From positions 1 through 39,121 of the IMG/VR virus record IMGVR_UViG_3300039056_000005: a stretch of DNA of 39,121 nt. One strand, 5' to 3'. The stretch is from a virus. Positions 1,117-39,121 of the stretch are shown piece by piece; position 1 is the first letter of the stretch, and each line of letters begins with the position of its first letter. Made by a program: the position numbers and the translations under genes. Below the pieces are notes generated by a model. That model did no database searches and was not told the DNA's origin. It saw only the letters and a list, made by a program, of their open reading frames with translations.

Positions 1117-2010
1117 TCACTGGCTGTACATATTGAGTAGTTCGTTGCGGTCCATGGTACCGCCCTGGCCTAGATCACGCACGCTGATTCCCAGCTGGCG
1201 GGCGGCCTGTGTTACCGCTGCTGAACGTGTTTTAGCCTGGCCTTGTGAGTATAGCTGTGCGGCACGGGTTGTAATGGCCTGCACTTTGGAACGGTTTTCC
1301 GGGTTCAGGTTCTGCAGGTTGCCTTGCTGGTCAAAGATGCCCCCCAGCAATTCAGCGGCCTGGCGGAACATCAGGTTTTCGTCGGATGATTTGAAGTCGC
1401 TACCAGATCCGCCGGCTTGCTCTTTCAACAAGGCATTGCTGGTGGTCGATTCGATCATCTGACCATCCTTGTAAAGACGATCTTCCCCACCAAAGGTGAT
1501 TTGCTCGGGATTCTTCAGCATATCGTCCAGCTCACGGGCACGCGCCAGCCCCATCTGCACAAAGTTTGGGTCATATTCTTCGGGCATTTTACTGGCCAAC
1601 TCTGGTGATACGTTTTGTCTTGCCAGCTCATACCTTTGGGCTTGCTCTTGCTTCGTGCCAGCGGACAAAATATAGGAATTCATCCTTCCCAATGTTTCCA
1701 CGTTTTCTTCCATCTGCTTACGCTGGCGCTCGTCCATGCTCTTGAAGGCTTCCTGCACCTGCGCAGCTTCCTCCGGAGCGAAAGCGATCAGCTCACGCTC
1801 TGCCTGGCGGCCATCCTCACCCCCTGCAGCCACCCGGGAGCGTAACTGGTTCAGGGTCTGGCCACGCTGGCGGGCGCTTTCCCGGTCCTCTTTCTTCCAG
1901 TCCAGCGCCAGGGCGTTGGCCTTGCGCTGCTGTCGGGAGCCCTTAACCGCTTCAGTGGTGCGGTAAACCTCACCCATATCAATGCCAAACTGATTCGCCA
2001 TGTTAGCCAC
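1117..2010 (-). CDS. Putative DNA ejection (internal virion) protein, 297 aa
   Basis: A 297-residue, strongly helical, Gln/Glu/Ala/Arg-rich protein without signal peptide or clear membrane segment. Residues from about 25 to 150 look like long amphipathic helices with charged heptads. The C-terminal third has a short repeat-like pattern (RQLGISVRDLG) that could be a small helical bundle. No enzyme motif is visible. Its start overlaps the previous ejection-type gene by eight bases and its end lies eight bases from the start of the giant gene, so the three form a translationally coupled group. By position it corresponds to a P22 gp20/gp7-type ejection protein, released from the capsid to help DNA cross the periplasm. 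The assignment rests on context and composition. Confidence 0.6.
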   Translation of the reverse strand: MANMANQFGIDMGEVYRTTEAVKGSRQQRKANALALDWKKEDRESARQRGQTLNQLRSRVAAGGEDGRQAERELIAFAPEEAAQVQEAFKSMDERQRKQMEENVETLGRMNSYILSAGTKQEQAQRYELARQNVSPELASKMPEEYDPNFVQMGLARARELDDMLKNPEQITFGGEDRLYKDGQMIESTTSNALLKEQAGGSGSDFKSSDENLMFRQAAELLGGIFDQQGNLQNLNPENRSKVQAITTRAAQLYSQGQAKTRSAAVTQAARQLGISVRDLGQGGTMDRNELLNMYSQ

Positions 2011-2722
2011 CGGTGCCCAATGCTTTGTAGAGCAAGAAATTCTGTGCGCCCTGGTTCAAGGACTGCCCAATGCCCTGATAGGAGCTGGCGCGGGCGTTGC
2101 CTTGGTTTATTGCGCCTTGAGCCAATGCGTTACCCGTAGCCTGTGTTGCCTGAGTCACGTTGTTGGCCATATTGGTTCGGGCGTTCTGGTCTGCCTGGTT
2201 AGCCACCTGCCCCACGTTGGCCAGCGTTGCCAGCCTGTTAAACTGTGCGTTCTTGTTGCTCATGTCCAGCTTGTATTCGGTTGTAGCTCGATTGAATGCT
2301 TTGCCGTATTCCTGGCTGGCAAGATCTGATACGTACCGGGTCACGGCGCGGGCCTGTGCCCCCGACTGAAGCCGGCCCCGTGCTGCTGCGCTGGCATCCA
2401 GGGCATTGATTCCTTCTTGCCTGCGGAACTGGTACCCAGGATCAGCCTTAAATTTAAAGTTGAAATCTCCGGGATTGAACTCTCCCGACTGAACACCGGC
2501 CCGCAATTCCTCAAGGGATTCGGCGCCAATCTCACGCCATGGCGCGTTGTCCTCTCGCTGCTGATCGAAAATTTCTTTCTGGAAATCAATTGTTTCACGG
2601 TTTGCCTGAACCTGTGCATCACTGGCTTTCCCAGCTGCTTTTGATTGCGCCTTACCGGACTTGTAGGACGTATAGCCACCGACAACGGCGCTACCAACAA
2701 CGGCAGTTGCTACCCATGCCAT
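2003..2722 (-). CDS. Putative DNA transfer/ejection protein, P22 gp7-like, 239 aa
   Basis: The product opens with a short Gly/Ala/Val hydrophobic helix (residues 2-16, AWVATAVVGSAVVGG). Long Gln/Ala/Asn-rich helices follow, then a middle section with DFNFKFKADPGYQFRRQEG and NALDASAAARGRLQSG. That middle section is a recurring signature of phage proteins annotated as DNA transfer or tail-assembly proteins in P22-like and other podoviruses. The C-terminal half is Gln/Asn/Ala-rich with weak repeats. A GGGGGGTG ribosome binding site precedes the ATG. It probably sits inside the virion and is ejected with the DNA. It overlaps the upstream cupin-like gene by 13 bases and the next gene by eight. Confidence 0.7.
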   Translation of the reverse strand: MAWVATAVVGSAVVGGYTSYKSGKAQSKAAGKASDAQVQANRETIDFQKEIFDQQREDNAPWREIGAESLEELRAGVQSGEFNPGDFNFKFKADPGYQFRRQEGINALDASAAARGRLQSGAQARAVTRYVSDLASQEYGKAFNRATTEYKLDMSNKNAQFNRLATLANVGQVANQADQNARTNMANNVTQATQATGNALAQGAINQGNARASSYQGIGQSLNQGAQNFLLYKALGTGG

Positions 2723-18501: not shown

Positions 18502-19137
18502 TCAGCTAAGGGCGGTTACCACTGCCTTGAACAGATAATCCTTGCTGCGTTGCTCTTGCGGCAGGTTCTCGTAGGCAGTCACGCACGGATGGCAACGGGC
18601 AACGGCGTCTTTCACGTCACCATGCACCCAGCCATCGTTCAGCTTTTCTTCCAGCCAGCTGTTGTGGCTATCTTCCGGTGTGGCGTCCGGGTTCTTCTGG
18701 TGAAAGGCCACACCCTTGATGGCGCTCTCCTTCTGCCAGTCCGGCGCTTCTTCCCACGGTACCTGGCTGTTGTCGCCCAGGGATTTGCAGTAGGCGCGGT
18801 TCACTTCATGCGCCAAGCGGGCAATGCGTTCAGCGTTAAAGCTCAGTTTCCGGTAGGCTTCTAGCTTCCAGATCTCGCTGAATGCGTTGTCGTAGCTGAT
18901 CTTCCGGACAATCTCGTCGCGCCAGTTGGCAGGGTCAATGCAGGTCGCGGGCTTGCCCACCACCACAAAACCGTTATCCATCCGGATGCCGCAATACATC
19001 AGCTTCTGTCCGGCAATCACTACGGTTTCATAGTCCACGTCGACAATGCGGGATTCGATCAGGGCGCTGGTGATCTTGTCGCCATCACAGCCCAGGTCAC
19101 GCATCATCTGTTCCACTTCGGTATGGTTCATAGCCAT
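18502..19137 (-). CDS. Phage Gp49-type plus RyR-domain protein, 211 aa
   Basis: The N-terminal 80 residues (MNHTEVEQMMRDLG, SRIVDVDYETVVIAG, NGFVVVGKPATCIDPANW) match the small Gp49-like phage family. The C-terminal half, from about residue 105, has the RyR repeat pattern: IARLAHEVNRAYCKSLGDNS, PWEEAPDWQKESAIKGV, TPEDSHNSWLEEKLNDGWV and a final helix. RyR domains were named from ryanodine receptors but also occur in bacterial and phage proteins, where some bind nucleotides. The fusion suggests a sensor or effector domain on a phage early protein; ligand and role are unknown. It begins with MAM and has AGAGG upstream. Confidence 0.75.
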   Translation of the reverse strand: MAMNHTEVEQMMRDLGCDGDKITSALIESRIVDVDYETVVIAGQKLMYCGIRMDNGFVVVGKPATCIDPANWRDEIVRKISYDNAFSEIWKLEAYRKLSFNAERIARLAHEVNRAYCKSLGDNSQVPWEEAPDWQKESAIKGVAFHQKNPDATPEDSHNSWLEEKLNDGWVHGDVKDAVARCHPCVTAYENLPQEQRSKDYLFKAVVTALS

Positions 19138-29132: not shown

Positions 29133-29142
29133 ATTATAGCCT
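29133..29142 (-). promoter_or_regulatory. Candidate promoter box before the tailspike
   Basis: AGGCTATAAT on the leftward strand, containing a perfect TATAAT, lies at the stop codon of the giant gene and about 25 bases before the tailspike start. The same ten bases occur before the scaffold gene. No good -35 box is seen, so an activator may be needed, or the match may be chance. Confidence 0.4.
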
Positions 29143-32100
29143 ACGGCATTTCGTCATGTACTTGCTCCAGGGCATCCTTGGCCTGGCGGTAAAATTTCTC
29201 AAGAGCCCGGTTTTTCTGCTCATAGTAGCTTTCAATCGCTGATTCTTTCTGCTCGGCAGTCATGTTCTCGTTGTACTTGTACGAGGCTATGATTTCCTGC
29301 TGATCGTCAAAAGCATTGTCGATCTGACTGAAGGCGCCATTCAGGCCAATCAGGATCTGGTTCACCTTATCCCCGGCAAACTCCGGCGCCTTGGATGGAT
29401 CACGGATGGCCTCACGCTGCAGCATGTTGAACGTCTGCTGTGCGGCGGCGGCCTTTACCTTCAGATCCCAATAGCCTTCTGTCCATTTTGTCCGGTATGG
29501 CACTTTCTGGCCAACGAACTGGTGCGTCATGTAATCAATCGGCGCGCCCCGGTTGAACGGGCGCGGCCCCCAATCGTCCTGCTTCCACAGGGCGGCCTCT
29601 GACGCATCGGCAATAATCATCTCCACATAGCGCAGAAATCCCTTGCTGTAGTGCTCTGCCACCAACGGTGATACCCCCAGGTATTCACCCAGCTTGCGGT
29701 ACATGATGGGCGTGCGGTCGGTGTACTGGTATTCAGCCGGGATATCCATCATGTAATGCGGCACCACGGGCGCCCCGGTGAACTTCTCATTGCGCTGAAC
29801 TTCTACCCAGGGCTGAAGGATACCGGGATAATCCCCGATACCAACGGTGTTCACCAGGGCCCATGCCAGGTGTTCGGATGCTTCTTTTCCGTCCCTTTTC
29901 TTCACATAGTCCAGGCCTACTTCCGGCAACGTGGCAAAGATATGGCCAAGGTCATACGGGCGAGGGATCTTGAACGGCGTGTCGGCGCCGGGGATGAAGA
30001 TCCACCAGAAGCGGGCTTTCTGGTCTGGCGTCAGCTGCTGGTACCGCTCATCATCCTGGTTCAGCAACCACAAGATCACACTCATCATGGTCAGCACACT
30101 GCCTTTCATCAGGAACACGGCTTTTTTATCAGTCATGCGTGCCAGGTTGGTGCCTTTCATTTCCCCGCGGATCTCGGAAAATTCCCGGGCGGCCTTGTCC
30201 AGCCCCTGAATGCCGGCGTTCATAAACGGCACGGTGCGCAGGAACTTGGCCCACAACTCATTGCGGCCCATCTTGCTAAAGTCGGTAGCGATCTCCCTGG
30301 CCTCCCAGGCGGCCTCCATCGGTGACGTGCCTTTCTTCACACCCAACTCATAATCACCAATGCGCGAACCGTACTCGAAAGCGCTGGTGAAGCGGTCCCA
30401 GCCGGCCAGGAACTTTGCGGCCGCATCCCAGCCGGATTCGCTCGGCAGGTCCAGCCGGCGCCGGTCGCGGGTTTCCTGTGTCCGGGCCTCGATCCTGGTA
30501 CCGTAACCGCCACCCTGCAGCCGGAATTCCTTGTAGATCTTGGTATTGAACATGAAGTGCCCCATGCCCTTGAGCGTGCTGTAGACCGGAATGAATCGGT
30601 TGCGGCTCATAATGGCGGAACTGACAGTATCCCTGACGGCGTTCGGCCCCAGGAACTGGAACATGCTGGTAACCGTCCGGGTCTGCAGGTTCTTCACCCG
30701 GTACAGAGCATTCATCACGGCGCCACTGCGAAGCCCGCTCAGGCCGGTGAGCATATCCACCAGCAACGGCTCATGCACTTCAAAGTACACCCGCTTGCCA
30801 TTCACCACGGCGCTGTCCACGTAGGTTTCCGTGGTCTGCGGCTTGTGCCCGAAGGTCCAGAAACTCAGCAATGCCGGGTTGGCTTCCAGGGCGGCGGCGA
30901 TATCCTCCACGTCCGTCACCTGTGCGTCCGGATCTCCGGCCATAATCATGCCGTCCTTGCTCACGGTCAGCCCCATTTCCGCCATGGCCTCGGCCATCTT
31001 GGCGGCCATCTGTGCCTGCTCAACCTGCACCTTCTTGCTGTCCGGTGCGATCTTCGCGGCAAACAGGGCGCCGTCCTGGCTGTTCATAATGTCGTTGTAG
31101 AGCGTTGCCTTGGCGCGGGCGATAATGGCGGCCCGTATATTCGATTGCAGGCTTTCGACAATGTTTTCTGCTATTTCCCGAGTGTTTTGATACCCACCCC
31201 TTAGCTGACTTTGTATGTCACCAGCGCCCATTTCGTGGCCATCCTCAATGCGCTGAATTACACGATGGAACGGCACGTAGTTCTGGTTCATCTTCTTGAA
31301 AGCTCGGCGCTGGCTTTCGTCAATCAGCCCCATCTGCACGTAGAAATCCAGCATCCTGCCATTGAACTTCTGGAACTCATCGAACACCTGCGGGAATTCC
31401 GGGTATTTCTGGCCCAGGGCAAGGCCGGCGTCAATCTCCTGGTCGGTGAAAAGGTTTTCTCGGCCCTGCTTCATCAGTTCCTGGCCTCGTCTGGCCTTAA
31501 AATACTCCATAAGAGCATCAAACCTTGGCCACCCGTGTTTGGCCACTGGCTTAAACACCTCATTCAATCCCTTTCCGCTGAACTCAAAGTAACCATCTTC
31601 AGTAAGCCTTGGCGTGCCGTCTTTCATGACGGCCTCATGCACGGATTCGGCGCCGTTCAGCATCTGGAACTGCTTGTACGGGCTCACCATGGCTTCGCCA
31701 ACTTCGCCCTTCAGCGTGCGCTCAACCACCTTGGCAGCATGGATCTTGTCAATCACCTGCTGACGATACCGCTCCAGTGGGTAACTGCTCTGGTATTCGA
31801 TTATCTGCTGCCTAGGCGTTAGCTCACGGCCAGACTTGGCCCGAAACTGTGCCCGTGGCCCCTGCAGGTACCAGCGGTGCATTTCGTCCTGCAGGCGCTT
31901 CATCTTGCGATCCAGCACGGCATCATCTTTCATCACCTGTTCAAACCTCTGCGTGAACAGTGGTGCCCTGGCCTTGGCCTCGCTGTAGTTGGTCAGCCAC
32001 AGGCGCACGAACTCGGCAAAACCTTCCTTGGCCTTCAGGTTCTTCTTGCTGGTGTAGCTCAACGCCTCCACTTCCTTGCGGTATTTGCTGTCCTTGTACT

Positions 32101-35100
32101 CCCGGGTAAACCGCTTGTTGTAGCGGTAGTGCATATCCAGGTAGTGCGCCATTTCGTGCGCCATCACCTCTACATTGTCGTAGCTCTTCACCCGCACTTC
32201 GCTGTTGTTGCTTCGGTAAAAGCCCAGCTTTGACTTGCCCTGGACTTTTCCGAAGTAGATACGCTTTCCAATCAGATCCTGCAGCATGAACCGGATACCC
32301 TCACGGCGGGTCGGTTTTTCCTCCGGCTTCAGGGTTACGGTGCGATCCCCAATCTTGAATTTGCTGTTGTCCGGGCGCCGTGGCACGCCTGTCATGCTGT
32401 ACGGTGGCTGCCACTTAGGCATGGGTACATCGGCCCCCATATCGCTCATCATGGCGCTGGTGGCGTCCTGGCTGGTGGCGTCCTGGTCCTTTTTGGGCTG
32501 CAGCTCGGCAATCACCAGCTGGTGGCGGGCCTTAACCTTTGACAATTCCTCGGCCTGGTCCCACTCCTGCACCTGTTCTTCCAGCTTTGGCAGATCCCTT
32601 TCGGCCTGCTTCACCCGGGCGGCCTGCTGTTTGGCCTCGGCGTCGATGGCTGAAATGGTGTTGGCCACCCTGCGCGCCAGGCCGGTGGCATCGGCGCTGC
32701 CGATATCCTTGATATCCACCTGGTGTTCCAAGGCGCCGTCCAGGGTCAGCACAAACCGTGTTCCGGTGACATTATCCAGGGTCATATCAAAACCGGCATA
32801 GCTGCCAATGGCCTTGGATTCGGTACCGGCGTCTGACATTTTCGCGGCTTCCGCCAGGATCTCCTGGCCGGCGTCCTTGTGCTTGTCGAACGTCTGGCCA
32901 TTCACGGTGATACTGAAGTCTTTGGGCGCGGCCTTGGCCTTCTTCACGTCCTGAGCGTACTTCAGCAAGCGATCCTTGCCCCGCTCCACAATAGATTTTT
33001 CGCGGCGGATGGCGTCACGGATGCGGAACTGTTCGCGGTCGTGTTCTTCCTCGGCCTGTTCCAGCTTTCGCAGTTTCTGGCGAAGATCCATTTCTTCCAG
33101 GATCAGCGGATTGCCACTTGATGCCGCTTTCATCTCGGCGGCGTTGGCTGATTCCGCTCCCAAGTCCTCGATCTCGCGCTGTTTGGTGTTGCCCTTGCGC
33201 ACCTGCTCGATAAACCGAGCCTTGGTTTCGATGGTCTGCCACATGCGGCTGTCCAGCGTCTGCTTGGTGGCGTAGCGGTTGATCTCGATTTCAAAGCCAT
33301 TCGGGTCACGGTCGTACAACTCGTTACCCTGGCGGATAATCCGGCCTTCCCGCTGTTCCAGGTCTGACGGCCTCCACGGTGCATCCATGTGGTGGAGCCC
33401 CACCAGGCGGGTCTGCACGTTCATGCCGGCGCCCATCTTGGCAGTGGAGCCCATCAGCACGCGAACACGGCCTGTGCGCACCTTGGCGAACAATTCAGCC
33501 TTCTGCAGCTCGGTGTTGGCATCGTGGATATAGGCCACTTCCGATTCCGGTATGCCTAGGTTAATCAGCTTCTGGCGCAAGTCGTCATACACACTGAAGT
33601 CGCCATCCAGGGCTTCCAGCTCGTCCGGGCTCATGCGGTCCAGCTGTTCGCTGGCGGCCTCGTCGCCATCCTCGGCACGTTGGATCAGGTCACGGATTCT
33701 GTTGGCTTCCTGCGCCTTGGCGCCCTTGGGCGTACTCAGGTCGATGAATACCAGCTGCGCACCCTTGTCGTCGGCCCACTGGTCGTACAGTGTTTTAATC
33801 CGGCTGGCGGCCTCGTTGATCTTGCTGTCTGGGTTGTCGACGTACAATGCCGGGTCGATCAGGCGCATATCCAGGGCGGCCTTCCGGGCATCGCTCATAA
33901 TCTTGAGCATGTTGTCGGCGCCCTTCTCCGGCTTCTTCGGCAGGTGTTCAGCACGCCATACCAGTGAGCCCTTCGGATAAACCTCGTTGCCCCGCTCATC
34001 CTGAACGGGCACGCCAATGTAATCGGCCTGGTCCTTGCTGCGCTCCACAACAATGTTATTCGGCTTCCCGCCCTTGATCTTCGGTACCGGAAGGCGCTTG
34101 CCCTGTGCCGCCAGCTGCTTGTTGATATCGTCGCGGTTTACCACGTCACCAAAGGTCAGGTACCGCTGCATCAGCTCGGGCAGGTTCACGAACTTTCTGA
34201 AACGGCTGTTCAGCTTGTAGCTGCCCGTTGGTGACAGCTCCCAATCGGTGACCACTTCCCCGTACATGCGTGCCCAGGCATCGAAGTGTGCAATGCCCTG
34301 GTCCTGCAGGGTCTGGTAATCCAGGAACCGCTGCATCGTATACATTTCCGCCATGGTGTTGCTGATTGGCGTGCCGGTGGCGAATACCACGTTGTTGCCG
34401 CCAGTGCGCTCCAGGATGGATTGCACCTTCATAAACATATCGGCGGCCTTCTGGCTGCCCTGCGGGTTACCCAGGCCGGCAACGCGGGTCATGCTGGTGG
34501 CAAAGCCCAGGTTCTTGAACTCATGGGCTTCATCCAGGAACAGGGCATCCACACCCAATTCACCAAAGGTCAGGTTATCGTCCTTGTTCTCGGCATCGAA
34601 CAGGCGCTTCAGCCTTTCCTGAAGGCGCTCTTTCTGCTTCTCGATCTGCTTGATGGACCGGGCGCCCTTGCCTTCCTGGTCGCGGATAGTGGAAATGGCG
34701 GTGTCGATATCCCGGATCTGCTGGTTGATAAACCGTTCCTGGAACTCGGCATCCATTTCGACCTTGCCAAACGAGGAATGCGCCACAATCACGGCGTCCC
34801 AATCCCCGGTGGCGATCCTGGCGAACAGGCGCTTACGGTTACCCTTCTCAAAGTCTTTCTTGGTGGCGGCCAGAATGTTGGCGTTGGGATACAGCTTGGT
34901 GAAATCCTCGGCCCACTGGCCCACCAGGTGATTCGGTACCGCGAACATGGGCTTTTTGGCGCGGCCTGTCCGGCGTAGCTCCATGGCCCCGGCGATCATG
35001 GTGAAGGTTTTGCCGGCGCCCACTACGTGATCCAGCAACGTGGTACCGCTCTGCACAATCCGCCAGGCGGCATTGGCCTGGTGCGGACGCAACTTCACAA

Positions 35101-38100
35101 TGTCGTCGCCCACCTTGCCAGGGAACGTCAGGTGCGAACCGTCATACTTCCGCACGCGGTCGGTGTTGAAGGTGTCGTTGTAGAGTCGAACTAGGCGATT
35201 ACGGCGGGCATCGTCTTTCCAGATCCAGCGGCGGAACTCCGCTTTCACCCGTTGAATCTTCTCGTTGGCGGCGTTGGTGGCGGATTCGTTGATAACGGTG
35301 GTGTTTTCGTCCACTCGATCCCGAATCACTATGCTCTTGTCGTTTGCCGCGGCGGTCAAAATATCGCTCACCTGCGCACGGTCGGTACCGTACTGGCTTT
35401 CGGCGGCGGTTGTCGGGCTGCCTTTGATGTTCCACTTGGCCATTACCGGGTTGTAGGTTGCCTTGCCGCTGGCGTTACCCAGGATATGGTCGGCAAACTC
35501 GGTCACCACTTCCGGCGGCAACCAGTGGGCGCCAGGCTTCACCCGGATATCGACGGCTTCAATGTCCTCCGGCTGCACATCCTTCAGGGCCTGCACGTTG
35601 CGCTCAAAGCGCGGCATATCCTTCGCCATGCGCTCGGCCATGGCCAGCTTCTGCTTCACGTTGCCGGACAGGTATTCGTCGCGGGATTCCCAATTATTGG
35701 GCGTACTCTCGAAAACCAGGTCGCCCAGCTCGGCCACAATGGCGCTTTCCGTCTTGCCGTACAGTTGGCTCATGTACTTCATATCCACCCGGCCCTTTTC
35801 GGACAGGCTGGCGGTCAGTGCATCCTTGGCGGTGGTGGCTTTCTCCGGCGCCTTGTAGGGCTGCTGTGTCCGGGTCCGGAAGATGGCGGCCTTCTCGGCG
35901 CTCGGCTTGCGCGGGGTTTCCCCGGTGCGCTTGGCCACGGTCGGGCTGATACCCTTATCAAAGGATTCTTCCAGGGCGGCCAGCTGCGGCCAGGTTGGAT
36001 CATCCCGGAATAGGCGCTTGTTGGCATCCAGGTTGATGGGTCCGTTCTTCTTTACAAACTGGTCATACACCCGGTTGAGTCGGTCACGCAGTGCGCCCAG
36101 GGCCTCGTCCTTCACGTTTTCGGTCAGCTGCGCCTTACGCAGATCCGCGAACACGTCACGGACCTTAATCAGACCACGCACCCGTTCTTCGGCCTTTTTG
36201 CTCGGCATTTCCACGGGCTCAGACCGGGCCTGCCCCATTTCGCTTTCCAGGCGGATGCTGATCTGGTCGCCATCCAGGAACATGCTGCCCACCTTCACGT
36301 TCTCCACGCTGGTCGGCAGGGTTACTTCCTCGGATACCGGCTCAGTGGTGGCGGCGTCCATAAAGTCTTTTGGCAGGCTGGCCAGGGCTTCCTGCAGTAG
36401 CGCGTTGGTGTCTTGCCCCTGCCTTGCCACCAGGGCAGGCTCATTCGGCCCGTACATCGAACCGTAGGCGCCCCATTCACCCAGCATCATCCCCGGATTG
36501 CGGTCGAAGTATTCGTTTAACGGTACCTCGATACCCTTGGCATCCTTCACGGTGTTGACCACGGACCAGGATTCACCAGACGGCTGCTCTCCCTCCCGGC
36601 GCTTACGCAGAAAGATGATATCGGTAGTGACTTCGGTGCCGGCGTTCTTCAGGAATGCGTTGTTCGGCAGTCTCACAGCGCCCAGCAAGTCGGCACGCTC
36701 GGCCAGGTAATCACGCGCCATCTTGTTGTTGCCGTCCATCAGGCGGCTCGATACCACCATGGCCAGCACGCCATTGGGTTTCAGGCCGGCCATAGATTTG
36801 GCGAAGAAGTAATTGTGAATGCTCATTTTCGACAAGGCTTTGCGCTTGCCGTCATACAGCTTCTGATTGCCAAACGGCGGGTTACCAATGGCCAGGTCAA
36901 AATAGCCATCCGGCATGTTGAACTCTTGAAAGCCCATCGGTGCCTGAATGTTGGCGCCAGGGTACAGCTTCTGCGCAATGCCCCCGGTGATATGGTCCAG
37001 CTCCACCCCGGCAATGCTGCTCTTGGATCTCACGCCACCCGGCATGAATCCCAGGAAGTTGCCGGTACCAACGGATGGTTCCAGCACGCGGCCACCCTGA
37101 AAGCCCATGTTCTTCACGGCCTTCCAGATCTCGGTGACAATCTCCGGGCTGGTGTAGTGGGCATCCTGCGTACTGCGGCGAGCGGCGTCATATTCTGCTT
37201 CGGTCAAGGCCTCCTGCAGCTGTTTGGCCTCCTTCTCCCAGCCCTTGGTGATCTTGCCGCGGTCACCCACAAAGGCTTGAGGCAGGCCACCCCAGCCCAC
37301 ATAGCCGGCCAGGATCTGCTGTTCCTCCGGTGTGGCCTGGCGGCCTTCTTCGTTCAGCTGCTTCAGTGTCTGGATGGCTTTCAGGTTGTTCTTGAACTTG
37401 GTTTTGGCCCCGCCAGCACCAATGTTCATTTCCGGCGTCAGTGTGAAGAACTTGGCCGGCCTGTCGCCTGCTGGCTCTGCTCTCTGCGTTGTTGCGCCTT
37501 TTGGCGTTGGCGCCTTCTTTGCCGCTTTTTCTGTCGCATCTACGCTTCCCTCAGATCCTCGGGTTGCGGGCTGTCTGCTTCCAGCGTCCTGCTCATCGTC
37601 TGCAGGGCGTCGCTCAGTATCGCGGGTCCGTTGCCCGCCGGCTTGTCGTTCTCCGGTTCCCCCGGTGGAAACAGGTACGTTTCCCTCACCATCTGAAACG
37701 CCTCGTCCGGCTGGTACCCCGCTTCCTCCAGCTCGATCACCTGCTGGTACGTCTGTTCCGCTGCCTGTTTCAGCATCGGGTCCAGCGTCCCCTGCTTCTT
37801 CAGGCTCTGATACAGCTTCGGCCTGTTCTCCTTCCAGTGTTCTCTGGCCTGGTTGATCCAGTTCTGCAGGTTCATCCTGTGTTACCTCCGATGGTCGCTC
37901 GGCAGTGTCACCCGGCGTACCTTGGTCCCGGGCGGCAGGCTGGCTAGAAACTCCGGCGTCACCTCCGGACCTTGTGACGCCTGGCGGGGTTTCGCCTCGG
38001 CCTGCTCGTTGCCCGGTGCGCTCCCGCTCTGCCTTTTGGGCTTGTAGCCCTCGTTCTGCTGCTTCGATCGTTTCCGCTGTGCCATAACTCAGCCCTATTC

Positions 38101-39104
38101 CACGCTTGGTGATTACCTCACCACTCGGTAGCTCAAATTCAATAATAGCGTTTTCCAACTCTGCAGCCACTTCCTGCATCAGCTGTTCCGCTTCCTGTTG
38201 GGTATTGGCCTGCACCCAAAACTCATCACCACTCGGATGATACGCATCGGCGCCCTTTGCTTTGAATGCGCGGCCAATGGCCTGCAGCATCTGATCCCCG
38301 GCGCCGTGGCTCATGTTGTCGTTGATCCACTTCAGGGAATCGGCGTCAACTGATACCTGTACAGGCTTGCGCTCGTTTTCCTCATAGGCGCGGCGGTTGC
38401 CCAGGCCGGTTAGATCATCCTCAAGCAGTGCCTGGCGCATTTCGTCCTGTGTCATTTCAGCGACACGGCGGCGGGTTTGCGGGTCTTGTCGGCGCTCTAC
38501 GTTCGCCACGCCATCACCCTTTCTATCTTTTGCCTGAGCCAGTGCTTCAAGCGCGTTATCCCAATTTCCGGATATCGGCGTATCTCCTTCAGCATCAAAT
38601 GCTTGGAATGTATCGTCCCTGCGATCCTGAATCAGTTTTATACCGGGATCGTCGGTGTAATACGTGTAGATATCGAGAGGATCTTGCCAAACCTTGCCAG
38701 CCTTTCCTTGGAAATCAGGAAATTGGCCGTCTTTAATCTTGTTTGGCGTTTGGCCATCATAGCGCCGTTTGGTGGTTGCGGGCTCTGGCGCCGGAATATC
38801 CGCCAGCATCTGCCTGGCCTGATCGGCTCGCATATCCCACAACTGCGCATCAGTCACCCCGGCATCCCGCAACTGGTTGCGCTCAAACGGCGTCAGATCA
38901 TCAGCGGCCTGCCCGGTTTCCTGCCCGGCTTCTTGCTCAGGCTCTGGCCGGTCTGCTTCTTCCGGCGGCCTCACTGGCTGCAGCGGTACGTTCATATCCT
39001 GCGGCATTGCACCCTGGCGCGGCGCGATATCAATGCCCCGTTCTTTCAGCTTCTGCGCTACCAGGTCACCCATAGTCGGGCGCTCTGGTGCCCGTACCTT
39101 CTCA
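29141..39104 (-). CDS. Giant polyvalent protein: GGDEF, DNA methylase, SF2 helicase, zincin and C-terminal ejection-type domain (partial, 5' end missing)
   Basis: The frame is open from the primer tag to a TAG at 29141; the first Met (39073) has no ribosome site, so this is the rest of a longer gene. Numbered from that Met (3,310 residues): GGDEF domain 215-350 (DLTGLGNRR 220-228, SGDEF 281-285); disordered linker 350-540; adenine methylase 590-830 (EPSVGTGNF 665-673, NPPFG 731-735); SF2/SNF2 helicase 1325-1950 (GAGKT 1352-1356, DEAH 1514-1517, ATGTP 1565-1569, QREGRIIRQG 1907-1916); coiled coils about 1990-2190; zincin HEMAH 2306-2310 with likely third ligand Glu2354 in GFAEFVRLW; long C-terminal domain 2440-3310 (NAVRDT, hydrophobic helix 2990-3004). 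Methylase-helicase fusions such as P1 DarB protect incoming DNA; large phage polyvalent proteins are thought to be ejected with it. Confidence 0.9.
37540..37875 (-). CDS. Overprinted gene nested in the giant gene, 111 aa
   Basis: In a second frame of the same strand, GGAGGT lies eight bases before ATG 37873-37875. The product is a helical, normally composed protein: NLQNWINQAREHWKENRPKL, then TLDPMLKQAAEQTYQQVIEL and GYQPDEAFQMVRETYLFPPG. It reminds me of small phage proteins of the W....RP..Y..LK..G type with a VRE.YLFPPE-like end. By hand count about 83% of its codons end in G or C, like nearby genes, while the giant frame over the same bases has only about 30% in the 30 codons I counted and encodes low-complexity Gly/Ala/Pro/Glu/Arg text. 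Function unknown. It stops at 37540 (TAG). Confidence 0.6.
   Translation of the reverse strand: MNLQNWINQAREHWKENRPKLYQSLKKQGTLDPMLKQAAEQTYQQVIELEEAGYQPDEAFQMVRETYLFPPGEPENDKPAGNGPAILSDALQTMSRTLEADSPQPEDLREA
37882..38085 (-). CDS. Overprinted gene nested in the giant gene, upstream partner, 67 aa
   Basis: In the same frame as the 111-residue nested gene, ATG 38083-38085 opens a basic protein: a Lys/Arg/Gln-rich start (AQRKRSKQQNEGYKPKRQ), then VTPEFLASLPPGTKVRRV and a stop at 37882, which overlaps the next gene's GGAGGT ribosome site. About 79% of codons end in G or C. The start has only a weak site (GAGTT), so it is less certain than its partner. It could bind nucleic acid, judging from charge alone. 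It begins in codon 330 of the visible giant frame. Confidence 0.45.
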   Translation of the reverse strand: MAQRKRSKQQNEGYKPKRQSGSAPGNEQAEAKPRQASQGPEVTPEFLASLPPGTKVRRVTLPSDHRR

Positions 39105-39121
39105 GATCGTGACTGGGAAAC
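39105..39121 (-). other. Library primer tag at right end
   Basis: Reverse complement of bases 1-17. In the leftward strand it starts the window with GTTTCCCAG and reads in frame with the giant gene for five to six codons, which are artificial. Phage sequence ends at 39104. Confidence 0.9.

Follow-up and report, generated by a model that had tools for sequence, protein, structure and literature searches.

The 39,121-nucleotide stretch of viral DNA analysed here (IMG/VR record IMGVR_UViG_3300039056_000005, positions 1 to 39,121; hereafter the window) encodes a GGDEF domain within a giant DarB-like polyvalent protein. This domain is most likely a feedback-insensitive diguanylate cyclase delivered with the phage DNA, its activity, product and ejection being what we infer. 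Directly supported are the domain itself, its predicted fold, the conservation of its catalytic residues, the missing canonical product-inhibition (I-) site, the late-gene context and the modular loss of the domain in a relative. On balance, we favour a compact, catalytically intact GGDEF enzyme that would serve as an exchangeable module of a virion-packaged DarB-like protein, enter the cell with the DNA and make c-di-GMP.

The GGDEF domain of the original prediction is real. DLTGLGNRR, DADSLKWIND and SGDEF were read directly in one frame on the minus strand at 38218–38428, the interval originally assigned to the domain; that interval contains the motifs, but the whole domain is longer, at approximately 37988–38473 (Table 1). 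By profile and predicted fold it is a member of the GGDEF family (PF00990). Pfam matched PF00990 to residues 235–364 of the open ORF with 27.1 bits, compared with a curated cut-off of 23.8, and the match reached 34.6 bits in a single-record search. The domain is divergent, since its TIGR00254 score of 27.3 lies under the cut-off of 37.4 for that model. At E≤0.1 it is matched by 34 distinct PDB sequences, most of them named GGDEF or diguanylate cyclase, and in a profile search of PDB sequences DosC, DgcR, TpbB, WspR and PleD matched at E∼1e-15 to 1e-11. Within the DADSLKWIND motif, which also holds Lys264, we take Asp259 to be the metal-binding Asp and Asn267 to be a guanine contact, by analogy with PleD-type cyclases. 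Asn267 and Asp276 would together provide the guanine contacts, and Lys363 and Arg366 of KAER are presumably the basic active-site residues. With roles assigned from this general background, the metal Asp, the guanine Asn/Asp and the C-terminal Lys/Arg are all found in the window domain. The signature reads SGDEF, in which the second Gly, the acidic and the Phe positions are as in GG(D/E)EF and the first Gly is replaced by Ser. The original view that this variant is compatible with activity agrees with what has been published, in that an active consensus of (G/S/A)G(D/E)EF has been put forward and the SGDEF protein ECA3270 is cited as an active cyclase (PMC3974145), and MbaA, also with SGDEF, makes c-di-GMP in vivo. 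The lack of cyclase activity in vitro in the isolated cytoplasmic part of MbaA (PMC8079147) counts on the other side. Beyond the usual GGDEF end, residues 370–382 form a tail of the pattern GxRAxRGExPxG in which Arg372 and Arg375 are invariant in 60 alignment rows, and the RAxRG part of which is common to the YuA-like free-standing GGDEF proteins.

Table 1. Coordinates of the GGDEF domain, its host protein and neighbouring genes in the window (aa, residues of the open ORF).
Feature	Position	Strand	Basis
DarB-like polyvalent protein, 3326 codons, 5'-open at window edge	29141..39121	-	ORF, Pfam, PHROGs
GGDEF domain, aa 217-378	37988..38473	-	core of AlphaFold2 model; PF00990 match
DLTGLGNRR, aa 236-244	38390..38416	-	direct reading
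DADSLKWIND, aa 259-268 (Asp259, Lys264, Asn267)	38318..38347	-	direct reading; conserved in relatives
SGDEF signature, aa 297-301	38219..38233	-	direct reading; conserved in relatives
KAER (Lys363, Arg366), C-terminal basic residues	38024..38035	-	conserved in relatives
Stretch missing from L023, aa 240-374, 405 nt, in-frame (junction DDLTG/RGETPP)	38000..38404	-	comparison with L023
DNA methylase domain (Eco57I, PF07669), aa 730-813	36683..36934	-	43.2 bits
SF2/SNF2 helicase N-terminal part (ResIII, PF04851), aa 1342-1536	34514..35098	-	38.2 bits
Helicase_C (PF00271), aa 1859-1932	33326..33547	-	28.3 bits
LPD38, large polyvalent protein associated domain, aa 3024-3178	29588..30052	-	121 bits
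Probable N-terminal part of the same protein, 369 aa	3..1109	-	match to L023 and VvAW1 gp01
phrog_36852 gene (unknown function), directly upstream of N-terminal fragment	1117..2010	-	346 bits
DNA ejection protein (phrog_598), second gene upstream of N-terminal fragment	2003..2722	-	174 bits

An AlphaFold2 model of the window domain, built from its alignment to 59 relatives in the surveyed loci, has a mean pLDDT of 92.9 and a pTM of 0.83. Comparison of a predicted structure with cyclases had been named as a check on the original prediction, and the modelled GGDEF fold appears intact rather than collapsed. Its best structural match is DgcR (6zxb; Z 16.5, rmsd 1.8 over 136 residues, VIA-align 2), PleD (1w25) gives Z 14.9 by the same method, and GGDEF/cyclase structures dominate among the 50 PDB matches listed by Foldseek with the model as query. 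The window domain thus shares its predicted fold and its metal and nucleotide residues with PleD, WspR, DgcR and DosC; unlike them, it has Ser at the first signature position, a short first helix and no recognised sensor or dimer domain. It also differs from them in its I-site, as no canonical RxxD feedback site is present in the window domain and none stands in exact register in 66 of the 68 readable relatives; such a site occurs widely in the family but does not define it. The short first helix is general among the phage domains, with a median NRR-to-DxD spacing of 13 (60 of 70 rows readable) versus 21 in the chromosomal set (54 of 72 readable). Two points speak against an active cyclase: the DxLT Asp, which is common in cyclases, is found in only 28 of 70 relatives, and no dimerisation element was identified in the window protein.

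Relatives were surveyed with five query sequences, giving 79 viral and 80 genome-contig loci (the best 80 of 85 viral and the best 80 of 140 genome relatives), and, once identical domains had been merged, residues were counted in the 70 that lie in ORFs of 600 aa or more, the window domain not included. These 70 rows include L028, which carries the window's own domain sequence and differs only in row ends; L065, which ends before GDEF; and L116, a 632-aa ORF on a bacterial contig, of uncertain phage nature and labelled chromosomal in the tree described below. The frequencies are not population estimates, because the loci were found through GGDEF motifs. Asp259 and Asn267 are each present in 70/70 relatives, Lys264 in 65/70, Lys363 in 68/70 and Arg366 in 61/70, with Lys at the last position in six more. 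GDE is found in 69/70, that is, in every row that reaches it, preceded by S in 63 rows, G in five and A in one. To control for search bias, each of the two search motifs was checked in the rows that only the other had retrieved: GDE is present in 17/17 readable rows found with the DSLKW motif only, and Asp259 and Asn267 are present in 27/27 rows found with the GDEF motif only. Of 13 GGDEF pairs, the eight with unsaturated dS gave dN/dS values of 0.10–0.37, and five, among them the window versus L004, are saturated at synonymous sites. As judged from these alignments, the module appears to be kept catalytically intact where it is present.

In a quick tree of 81 rows (39 of 72 polyvalent domains after thinning, 12 free-standing and 30 labelled chromosomal), the polyvalent and most free-standing YuA-like domains split from most of the sampled chromosomal GGDEFs with an SH-aLRT of 91, and the polyvalent group has a value of 92, neither being starred. 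Two Oxalobacteraceae rows labelled chromosomal, L114 and L126, are misplaced inside the polyvalent group, as is the free-standing L106 among the chromosomal rows. This separation, the DSLKW signature peculiar to the phage domains and their short first helix would also suit an active enzyme with a role in conflict and a product other than c-di-GMP, such as cyclic GMP-AMP, linear pppGpG or a cyclic dinucleotide of another kind. Iyer et al. 2017 (PMC5512222) allow that such domains might interfere with the nucleotide responses of the host. We nevertheless regard a different product as unlikely. Asn267 and Asp276 are both kept in the window, and Asp276 is found in 64/70 relatives (N in five of the remaining rows and T in one). 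GGDEF enzymes that make cGAMP are marked by a Ser replacing the second guanine-contact Asp, and Ser occurs at the Asp276 position in 0/70 relatives.

The presence of GGDEF domains in polyvalent proteins, which the original prediction had missed, is already in print: Iyer et al. 2017 reported them and suggested cyclic-nucleotide signalling (PMC5512222). As in the window, GGDEF is joined there to further domains in a giant (pro)phage protein, among them SNF2 ATPase, adenine methylase and metallopeptidase, and an Acetonema longum prophage protein is named. The paper describes RelA/SpoT and GGDEF in polyvalent proteins as 'not very widespread', whereas the present survey adds 70 further domains, near-invariant residues and an in-frame loss. 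The window domain is therefore a real and well-supported further member of an already known kind, and the present analysis contributes a survey of relatives, conservation examined residue by residue with search bias controlled for, the lack of an I-site and an in-frame deletion found in nature. The literature covered, which included few subscription journals, gave no account of a virion-delivered cyclase that had been tested. Other known relatives are free-standing: YuA gp44, MP1412 gp43 and Bordetella FP1 gp39 are ∼34–46% identical to the window domain, depending on alignment, and like it have DSLKW and [SA]GDEF, and most proteins of this type group with the polyvalent domains. They are annotated as diguanylate cyclases, and the database record of YuA gp44 speaks of a 'putative role in host cell conversion'. 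In Bordetella, lysogeny by a YuA-like phage that encodes such a separate GGDEF protein was accompanied by more biofilm, the cause of which was not traced to that gene, and by a rise in flagellar motility (PMC8471281).

Modularity is indicated by L023 (IMG/VR contig 3300003534_000001), the polyvalent protein of which is 96% identical to that of the window over 2946 aa. L023 reads ...MTQDEMRQALLEDDLTG directly followed by RGETPPGVTRSGGD..., and in the window DDLTG and RGETPP are separated by 135 extra residues. L004 has a protein that differs in other respects but is 81% identical to the window over 149 aa and 67% over 255 aa, and L023 retains both module ends, including the ends common to L004 and the window. 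Because L004 shares these ends, loss in L023 is likelier than gain in the window. An ART-PolyVal (ADP-ribosyltransferase) domain follows just after the scar (L023:6403–6807, 76.5 bits), in the same region as the GGDEF domain of the window. Since L023 lost the core in frame and an ART-like domain follows in the same region, the GGDEF domain appears to be an optional, exchangeable module of the polyvalent protein, a dispensability that the original prediction had missed. The methylase-helicase backbone of the window is that of P1 DarB and of the DarB-like proteins of VvAW1 (gp01, 73% identical to the window protein over 2912 aa), PEp14, SopranoGao and others. Unlike the window, however, none of 18 records with this backbone that were not chosen by GGDEF has a GGDEF match; these are 13 DarB-like phage records including VvAW1 (0/13; 13 of 104 records were covered) and contigs L023–L027. 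Because it was lost in L023 and is absent from all 18 backbone records, the benefit of the module would be conditional. The same GGDEF family occurs in other backbones with Strawberry-notch helicase, LPD22, LPD39, RadC, InPase or ART (Pfam, 10 giant ORFs). Among the 145 giant ORFs of the InPase- and ART-anchored sets, each taken from the best 80 loci, the only traces of GGDEF are four intact domains, on contigs already in the GGDEF-anchored set, and the L023 scar, with no otherwise degenerate domain. GGDEF was found in 3/78 InPase-bearing giant ORFs, and in 1/67 ART-bearing giant ORFs as an intact domain, plus the L023 scar.

The position of the module ahead of the methylase-helicase part could mean that it serves as a sensor, binding GTP or c-di-GMP to tune its enzymatic neighbours and making no messenger; ∼24% of GGDEF domains are degenerate and some of these are receptors (PMC3974145). 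Such a role seems improbable, since the metal-binding residues, which mere binding does not need, are as conserved as the nucleotide contacts, and the domain lacks the canonical I-site that receptors usually employ. The relatives also lie in unrelated backbones, the window's methylase being matched by only 4/74 giant GGDEF ORFs (BLAST, E≤1e-5), with many ORFs of this set truncated where their loci end.

A type I inorganic pyrophosphatase lies within ∼45 residues of the GGDEF domain, in both orders, in L031, L036, L042, L047, L049, L051, L053 and L060. A functional link between InPase (PF18823) and GGDEF through removal of pyrophosphate was considered and is unsupported, because InPase is common in polyvalent proteins without GGDEF; it is present in 17/74 giant GGDEF ORFs but also in 4/13 DarB-like loci that lack GGDEF.

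With GGDEF, methylase, SF2 helicase and LPD38 in one giant protein, the large open ORF of the window is a polyvalent protein, and it matches phrog_10089, DarB-like antirestriction, with 2588 bits (PHROGs). At its opposite end the record has a 369-aa ORF that probably belongs to the same protein, as suggested by the similarity of this ORF to two relatives: its residues 1–362 are 81% identical to L023 residues 35–405 over 374 columns, and its residues 1–47 are 79% identical to Vibrio phage VvAW1 gp01. By L023 numbering, the gap between the two pieces is ∼46–50 codons. The incompleteness of the protein in the window had likewise escaped the original prediction. Because the N-terminal part sits at the other end, the record seems to be an almost complete genome with its break within the polyvalent gene; the VvAW1 genome has a close size (38,682 bases, compared with 39,121 for the window) and, in gene order, VvAW1 gp02 occupies the same place as the phrog_36852 gene. 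Upstream of the polyvalent gene and on its strand, the phrog_36852 and DNA-ejection genes come first, followed by those for tail, head-closure, major head, scaffold, portal and terminase proteins.

The original prediction had spoken of an ejected phage protein. The DarB/polyvalent class and the location beside a predicted DNA-ejection gene bear out part of that description, and ejection itself is what we infer. P1 DarB is a head protein present at ∼40 copies per virion, is believed to translocate and has an N-terminal capsid signal (PMC9024508), and by analogy the window protein may take the same route. A search for a shared N-terminal packaging motif found an ALEKAHLAGD-type stretch in 5/9 DarB-like/polyvalent relatives (L009 and L023–L026); as this pattern occurs in only 1/63 giant GGDEF ORFs, no general packaging signal was found. 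Because the gene sits with late structural genes, the protein is presumably made late, and the cyclase might act in the phage-producing cell instead of being delivered. The YuA-like proteins, which unlike the window's are separate, ∼156 aa long and encoded upstream of terminase and portal genes with no DarB-like fusion, would be in keeping with this reading. For the window protein we find late action distinctly unlikely, given its fusion to a DarB-like protein and the conserved N-terminal 47 residues shared with VvAW1, which fit, without proving, a capsid signal like that of P1 DarB. A degenerate or purely structural spacer, an alternative raised originally and in keeping with the in-frame deletion tolerated in L023, is highly improbable and a poor fit to a metal Asp in all relatives, GDE in all 69 rows reaching it, low dN/dS and the near absence of degenerate traces in the InPase- and ART-anchored sets.

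We propose that the delivered cyclase would work as follows. The DarB-like polyvalent protein would be packaged in the virion and enter the cell with the DNA, where two delivered copies may pair through the faces of their GGDEF domains and condense two GTP molecules to c-di-GMP. The enzyme would escape shut-off by its product because the canonical RxxD site is missing. The level of c-di-GMP would then go up in the first minutes after entry, ahead of any phage transcription of consequence. Likely consequences would be an immediate post-translational change in the host, such as braking of the motor or a switch in pili or adhesion, or else interference with nucleotide-triggered host defence. If the domain is active on entry, this would be a virus that injects a second-messenger synthase and alters host physiology before any phage gene is expressed. 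More tentatively, there may be a dedicated phage clade of feedback-insensitive mini diguanylate cyclases that are swappable cargo of injected polyvalent proteins and that, in the first minutes after the DNA enters, reset host c-di-GMP or blind defences triggered by nucleotides, with swaps for ART and other modules mirroring changing host conflicts. The intact relatives and the natural in-frame loss, as between the window and L023, suggest clean test pairs for the function of the domain.

Elsewhere in the window, no RNA family, and hence no c-di-GMP riboswitch, was found with Rfam at gathering thresholds, and ten other window ORFs gave no Pfam match to EAL or PilZ at E≤0.01. Positions 18502–19137 encode an Sf6 gene 66-like part (PF13876) fused to an RyR domain (PF02026), which also occurs in ryanodine receptors and in conflict-related proteins of prokaryotes.
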